DNA of 63,889 nucleotides from Desulfurococcaceae archaeon (GTDB lineage: Archaea > Thermoproteota > Thermoprotei_A > Sulfolobales > Desulfurococcaceae): assembly GCA_028275705.1 (NCBI GenBank), contig JAPWUD010000007.1, forward strand, positions 1 through 63,889, written 5' to 3'. A model generated the notes under the pieces. It was not told the origin of the DNA. It saw only the letters and a program-made list of their open reading frames with translations, and searched no databases. The translations under genes and the position numbers were made by a program. The first letter of the stretch is position 1. Every line of letters begins with the position of its first letter. Of this stretch, positions 12,183 through 12,558 are shown piece by piece.

Positions 12183-12282
12183 TACGGCAAGATTCCCAAA
12201 GGCGTTCAAGAGAAACCCTCTAAGCTCTCCTACACGAATTTACAACTGAAAGCCTCGCCTTTCAAGGCGGGGATGGTATAGA
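12183..12282 (+). mobile_element. Candidate IS605-type right-end relic (hairpin)
   Basis: At 12254-12273 a stem-loop is formed by cctcgcc and ggcgggg with a tttcaa loop, directly after a tga stop. An open frame of about 20 codons (12184-12248) reads into that stop. A short reading frame ending right before a cctcgcc/ggcgggg hairpin is the usual end of archaeal IS200/IS605 tnpB elements. No RuvC part remains. It sits next to a second, clearer relic, so a pair of nested or tandem insertions is likely. The assignment is inference from pattern. Confidence 0.4.
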
Positions 12283-12287
12283 AAAGT

Positions 12288-12296
12288 TTATAAGTT
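12288..12296 (+). promoter_or_regulatory. TATA box upstream of the tnpB-tail/omega-RNA relic
   Basis: The sequence tttataagt between the two IS relics predicts transcription beginning near 12316-12320, just upstream of the tnpB-tail homology. No protein gene starts downstream on this strand before the toxin-antitoxin operon, which runs the other way. Confidence 0.45.
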
Positions 12297-12315
12297 CTCT
12301 CGCTCAATTATTCTT

Positions 12316-12520
12316 GGTGATGAGTTAATTGTAAGCTGTGGTTGCCCCTAAGCCCATGTGGGATGCGGGGTTTGCAACCACTAAGCAAATGCATCATATG
12401 GGGGGATCTCTGACCACCCCGACTGCCCCGCAGAGGACAGATGTAGACCCGAATAGATGCGGGGAACCAGTGAACCCCTAAAGGGAACCCTCACCCCTTT
12501 AGGGCGGGGAGTAGGTCAGC
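12316..12520 (+). ncRNA. Candidate solo omega-RNA (reRNA) of an IS605-type element
   Basis: This span starts about 25 bases after the TATA box at 12288, covers the tnpB tail relic, and ends with a hairpin-rich right end: gaaccct, then a cacccc/ggcgggg stem-loop at about 12491-12510, then gtaggtcagc. TnpB guide RNAs are made from exactly this part of such elements (3' end of tnpB plus right end), with the guide in the flanking DNA, here from 12521. No tnpB is attached. Whether it is transcribed and used in trans by the tnpB at 30067-31299 or by one elsewhere is unknown. Confidence 0.4.
12335..12481 (+). pseudogene. tnpB: 3' fragment of an IS605-type tnpB
   Basis: A 48-codon open frame with no start encodes a tail rich in the sequence M-H-H-M-G-G-S-L-T-T-P-T-A-P-Q followed by D-V-D-P-N-R and G-E-P-V-N-P, then TAA. 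From family knowledge this is the variable C-terminal extension of crenarchaeal TnpB proteins, which overlaps the guide-RNA scaffold. The frame is blocked upstream by TAA at 12332, so the RuvC and zinc-finger parts are gone. The retained stretch is just the part that doubles as RNA, consistent with either simple decay or selective retention. The surrounding gap 12102-12558 has no other gene. Confidence 0.6.
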
Positions 12521-12558
12521 AGGCTGGGAGAAATCAAAGACTCCGTAGCTTTTTTCAA

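Follow-up and report, generated by a model that had tools for sequence, protein, structure and literature searches.

Does the interval 12183-12540 of a contig from a Desulfurococcaceae archaeon (assembly GCA_028275705.1, contig JAPWUD010000007.1) hold only the ends of a decayed transposon, or a gene for a guide RNA? The window analysed here is the whole 63,889-nt stretch, positions 1 to 63,889 of the forward strand. A preliminary description had proposed that solitary IS605-type ends in this interval give a stand-alone omegaRNA that works in trans, an observation that proved sound but mis-framed and is partly confirmed. In the reading that we favour, with a probability of roughly 0.7, the locus is a PATE (in the IS200/IS605 group, a palindrome-associated element that is not autonomous), which carries a complete TnpB guide-RNA gene and uses TnpB and TnpA in trans.

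An IS605-type element does lie within the interval, but its true extent is 12244-12519, and 12183-12239 is ordinary flank. The limits are set by an empty orthologous site in G006, a genome of the same genus, and by the points at which copies of the element cease to match. In G006, position 12243 is joined exactly to 12520 with zero target duplication: the empty site reads ...CTCCTACACGAATTCAC and then directly CAGGCTGGGAGAAATC..., while the window reads ...GAATTTAC-[element]-CAGGCTGGGAGAAATC.... Such precise insertion after a tetranucleotide, without duplication, is the signature of IS200/IS605 elements. The tetranucleotide of the G006 empty site is TCAC, compared with TTAC in the window, so retention targeting is not readable from that site. 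The features of a PATE are present, including left- and right-end hairpins related to IS605 ends, the lack of any TnpA or TnpB open frame, and a fixed insertion motif (TTAC at most copies) without target duplication. The left-end hairpin, the TATA-like box, the tnpB tail, the right-end hairpins and the absence of the nuclease gene had all been described beforehand and were confirmed in the sequence (Table 1). The left-end hairpin region is 86% identical to the left end of an insertion sequence with an intact TnpA gene (L061), and movement of the element is presumed to depend on a Y1 TnpA supplied in trans.

Table 1. Coordinates of the element, its parts and the TnpB gene of the same window.
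Feature	Position	Strand	Evidence
Non-autonomous IS200/IS605-type element (PATE), 276 bp	12244..12519	+	Empty G006 site; exact interval common to copies with different flanks
Target tetranucleotide TTAC, presumed TAM, left of element	12240..12243	+	Precedes 23/27 subfamily-1 copies displayed full-length
Left-end hairpin CCTCGCC-TTTCAA-GGCGGGG, presumed TnpA recognition	12253..12272	+	Found in PATE copies and tnpB-bearing copies
TATA-like box TTTATAAG	12287..12294	+	TATA-like in 58/64 subfamily-1 copies (loose pattern)
GGTGATGAG at predicted transcript start	12316..12324	+	Identical in 14 genus copies
Hairpin 1 of RNA, GTGGTTGC...GCAACCAC	12338..12381	+	Divergence 0.057 (8 copies); outer-helix cells 95% paired (59 copies)
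tnpB C-terminal relic, 27 codons (MGGSLTTPTAPQRTDVDPNRCGEPVNP) plus stop, overlapping RNA scaffold	12398..12481	+	Matches tail of 425-aa TnpB in L002
Hairpin 2, loop CTGACC at 12410-12415	12400..12420	+	98% of helix cells paired (59 copies)
Hairpin 3, CCCCGCA...TGCGGGG	12426..12464	+	Divergence 0.016 (8 copies)
Right-end hairpin	12488..12511	+	Common to tnpB-bearing C18, C3 and C32 copies, 94-97% over q166-290; predicted fold
Terminal GGTCAG: scaffold 3' end, right-end cleavage site, pseudoknot partner	12514..12519	+	GGTCAG in most copies
Predicted guide CAGGCTGGGAGAAATC	12520..12535	+	First bases past element; first 18 nt identical to G006 empty site
TnpB of another lineage, not the element's cognate	29992..31299	+	PF07282

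The retained tnpB tail had been put at 48 codons. The 27 codons before the stop do match tnpB, but the other ~20 codons are an RNA-like hairpin at 12338-12381 (hairpin 1), for which DNA and translated searches for a tnpB origin gave nothing clear. In one copy (L237) the interior of hairpin 1 seems inverted relative to its relatives. At the predicted start of the RNA, the motif RTGATGA occurs in 34/64 subfamily-1 copies and is therefore not essential; where present, it mostly lies 30-34 nt downstream of the TATA-like box. The corresponding GGTGATGAG is found at the predicted RNA start of all three PATE families described below, being invariant in 14 copies and missing in others. It may be a remnant of the tnpB start codon or start region, because the start region of the window TnpB (29992-31299) reads CTGATGAGTC. 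Its interpretation as a C/D-box RNA element was dropped, the D-box CUGA not being conserved.

The element is not solitary, contrary to the preliminary description. Eight copies of nearly full length lie scattered over its own genome (G000), with 84-94% identity and E-values down to 1e-119; so many near-identical copies at separate sites are beyond chance. Other genomes carry copies as well (five in G006, two in G002), and dozens occur in related families of archaea. A search model built on hairpins 1-3 (R1) matched 67/214 genomes of the order and 40/349 genomes sampled from the phylum, counts that take in tnpB-bearing loci; most of the Sulfolobales matches inspected are tnpB-bearing. In 40 further loci inspected in eight genomes, a few of which run into contig ends, nearly all lack tnpB and the TnpB match is confined to the tail. 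In Sulfolobales, tnpB is likewise missing from locus L192, where hairpin 1 is different. The complete chromosome G034:C1 (L097-L108, L184) carries about eleven PATEs of this element's family together with four tnpB loci of the same type. One insertion is orthologous between G000 and G006 (L038 and L066), with the element diverged by 7.8%, more than its flanks (~3.5%); L038 also resembles a second G000 copy more closely than it does L066, and the two observations together indicate that gene conversion or re-insertion occurs.

The copies that lack tnpB are constrained in the part that would form the RNA. Between pairs of the eight G000 copies, divergence is 0.27 from the TATA-like box to the start, 0.25 before hairpin 1 and 0.19 in the linker, compared with 0.00 in GGTGATGAG and 0.064 in hairpin 2, with hairpins 1 and 3 below the latter (Table 1). 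The left and right ends diverge by 0.10-0.11. Variable sites make up 13/122 of the core and 53/84 of the spacer (p=1.6e-15), and the core is also more conserved than the transposon ends (21/65, p=5e-4). A guide RNA had been said in advance to be refuted if the hairpins decay at random in close relatives. Most copies do not show this pattern; helices are decayed in some copies elsewhere (L110, L112).

Conservation of the structure itself was assessed by folding and by covariation. The single sequence folds modestly better than its shuffles (z -2.1). Copies from the genus by themselves show weak covariation, and a genus-only RNAalifold consensus has almost no covariation term, so a wider set of copies was used. 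In 59 tnpB-less copies from several families, 95% of cells are paired. Double compensatory cells number 32, compared with 12.0 +/- 2.5 in shuffles (0/500 shuffles reach 32, and every slid control is lower), in an alignment that was fitted to the RNA model and so favours it in this test. One pair of hairpin 3, GC in 31 and UA in 15 of the 59 copies, is a plain swap despite the model-fitted alignment. The hairpin 2 loop CTGACC is complementary to the terminal GGTCAG at the scaffold 3' end, a predicted pseudoknot of the omegaRNA type: among the 50 copies scored, 6/6 positions pair in 36 and 5/6 in 14. The terminal hexamer is mostly invariant because it is also the DNA cleavage site.

As in omegaRNAs, the scaffold is homologous to the 3' end of tnpB plus the right end: over ~120 nt it shares 94-97% identity with the tnpB 3' ends at the loci on contigs C18, C32 and C3. 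The candidate cognate, judged from sequence, is the 425-aa TnpB on C18 (L002), in which all three RuvC acidic residues and the zinc-finger CxxC cysteine pairs are kept. The preliminary description had instead paired the element with a complete, zinc-finger-less TnpB 18 kb away. That protein (29992-31299) is real and has no CxxC in its translation, but it was rejected as the partner: its ends have no similarity to the element, and a third PATE family, with seven copies in G000, namely L240 (G000:C34:7304-7589) and six more places, has the right end of this TnpB (31167-31322) as its scaffold. A second family shares the left end of the element (L048, L049, L050 and L054 in G000, L128 and L129 in G002, L131 in G006), and its scaffold is that of a TnpB (L006) beside the intact Y1 TnpA gene of G000. 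G000 has about 19 PATEs in three families, compared with 16 TNB-domain matches, and each family carries the scaffold of a different TnpB lineage.

Comparison with known TnpB guide RNAs had been suggested as a check. The complementarity between loop and terminus is like that of archaeal omegaRNAs, in which the hairpin-2 loop pairs with the motif adjoining the guide (PMC12558985). Matches to Rfam models remain below the gathering thresholds. HgcC (RF00062), an orphan RNA of hyperthermophiles, matches the element with 23.5 bits (E 1.3e-3), the representative of the third family (L240) with 38.4 bits and other copies with up to 47.1 bits (E down to 1e-9), all under the gathering value of 50 bits; sot0042 (RF02656), a haloarchaeal omegaRNA family, matches the subfamily-2 copy L048 with 36.3 bits (E 2.9e-6; gathering 88 bits). 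The PATE copies match HgcC over its full length (1-130) up to GGAGGUCAG, which borders a variable 3' end, although their scores stay at 23-47 bits. The orphan family resembles an archaeal IS605 omegaRNA. T. kodakarensis expresses HgcC RNAs both with a transposase gene and without one: dRNA-seq detected five, of which three lie inside transposase genes in sense orientation and two are unassociated with transposases (PMC4247193). This pattern fits HgcC being an omegaRNA, partly stand-alone.

Several explanations that do without a guide RNA, or without cleavage, were weighed against these results. It is unlikely that the element is an ordinary PATE, moved by TnpA via its ends, with an interior that is passenger DNA after deletion and makes no functional RNA. 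PATEs arising by core deletion are well described (PMC3119063; PMC7290912) and the TnpA gene of G000 is intact, but the interior core varies less than the ends that TnpA needs and less than the neighbouring spacers, hairpin 1 is kept across families without a clear counterpart in tnpB-bearing copies, and compensatory changes are present in the 59 copies. Three families each matched to their own TnpB lineage are also hard to explain by a passenger-DNA interior. Somewhat less probable again is an RNA that acts as a decoy or regulator, binding TnpB and competing with the omegaRNA of autonomous elements, or guiding binding but not cleavage. Equal conservation of the RNA would be expected in that case, and PATEs are at least as many as tnpB genes in G000 (about 19 vs 16); however, the guide is just local flank, and the candidate TnpB keeps the three RuvC acidic residues, so cleavage is expected.

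IS605 elements transpose in single-stranded form with the help of DNA hairpins, and the core might be conserved as DNA, providing single-stranded hairpins for transposition or replication. Known TnpA recognition uses the terminal hairpins, however, while the core here matches the RNA families HgcC and sot0042, and a loop-to-terminus pseudoknot next to the guide is an omegaRNA feature, leaving this explanation very improbable. That the 48-codon fused frame encodes a short protein is scarcely credible: L036 and L042 keep the frame open, but indels of the G-run or linker interrupt it in L041, L043 and L095, which largely refutes this explanation.

In the preferred reading, a PATE with a complete guide-RNA gene, transcription would be driven by the TATA-like box and the predicted RNA would begin near 12316. 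It would fold as an omegaRNA scaffold with the flanking DNA as guide, and would load a TnpB made elsewhere in the genome (possibly the 425-aa C18 protein). TnpA, acting in trans, would move and excise the element; TnpB would then cut the vacated donor site (TTAC followed by the guide), and repair templated by a copy would put the element back, in the manner suggested for ISDra2 (PMC8612924). That the RNA is transcribed, loads TnpB and directs targeting or cleavage is inferred from these features. The element would then be a parasite on its autonomous relatives and not a host regulator. The stand-alone omegaRNA acting in trans that was originally proposed thus gains support from the precise end, the core conservation, the compensatory changes, the 3' homology to intact tnpB and the likeness to HgcC and sot0042, but loses the TnpB 18 kb away as its partner.

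A guide starting at about 12520 is supported by the exact end of the element at 12519, and the guide is merely local flanking DNA. A search of viral contigs for the first bases after 12520, proposed in the preliminary description, found no viral target: the 16 exact 16-mer matches have no TTAC before them and were taken as chance. The exact scaffold pattern is absent from the viral contigs searched, though the tnpB 3' ends of ATV match at 80%.

Short elements with IS605-type ends only, no target duplication and a transposase presumed to act in trans are described in the available parts of reports on Haloquadratum PATEs and a Halanaerobium PATE-like element (PMC3119063, PMC7290912), the latter being 271 nt long and keeping the final 58 nt of tnpB together with the complete right end (PMC7290912). 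Those parts describe no guide RNA (PMC3119063, PMC7290912), whereas the RNA core here is constrained, with compensatory changes, in many genomes. With the ISDra2 omegaRNA/reRNA (PMC8612924) and the haloarchaeal sotRNAs (PMC12558985) the element shares a scaffold that spans the 3' end of tnpB and the right end, a right-end hairpin, the loop-to-terminus pseudoknot, a guide in the right flank, and a TAM that equals the insertion motif. Unlike these, the element lacks tnpB, has its own TATA-like box, carries a strong 5' hairpin where the others have coding sequence and would act in trans.

PATEs and omegaRNAs are already known. Guide RNAs apart from their nuclease gene have reportedly been described as well, as trans-encoded omegaRNAs of IscB and bacterial guide-RNA-bearing PATEs (Altae-Tran 2021, Meers 2023); the latter may already have been presented by Meers et al. 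2023, and novelty may overlap there. What is new, as far as could be checked, is the constraint demonstrated here, along with hairpin 1, the several families matched to different TnpBs and the connection with HgcC. More broadly, guide-RNA-only transposons may be widespread in hyperthermophilic archaea, parasitising TnpA and TnpB, with coexisting families keyed to different TnpB lineages and HgcC as the same kind of RNA, derived in part from such elements; on this generalisation we are evenly divided. If true, the guide RNA would itself be a selectable transposon trait, kept after nuclease loss, and TnpB a shared resource exploited by smaller elements. Multi-copy natural guides make the transposon-retention model testable, and an identity is offered for HgcC, the function of which is recorded as unresolved (PMC5732400).

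Beside the element, the window encodes paralogous small proteins of ~80 aa (12559-12810, 13305-13550, 21675-21890 and 22415-22636); the first of these lacks a Pfam match, and the paralogues are possibly toxin-antitoxin components.
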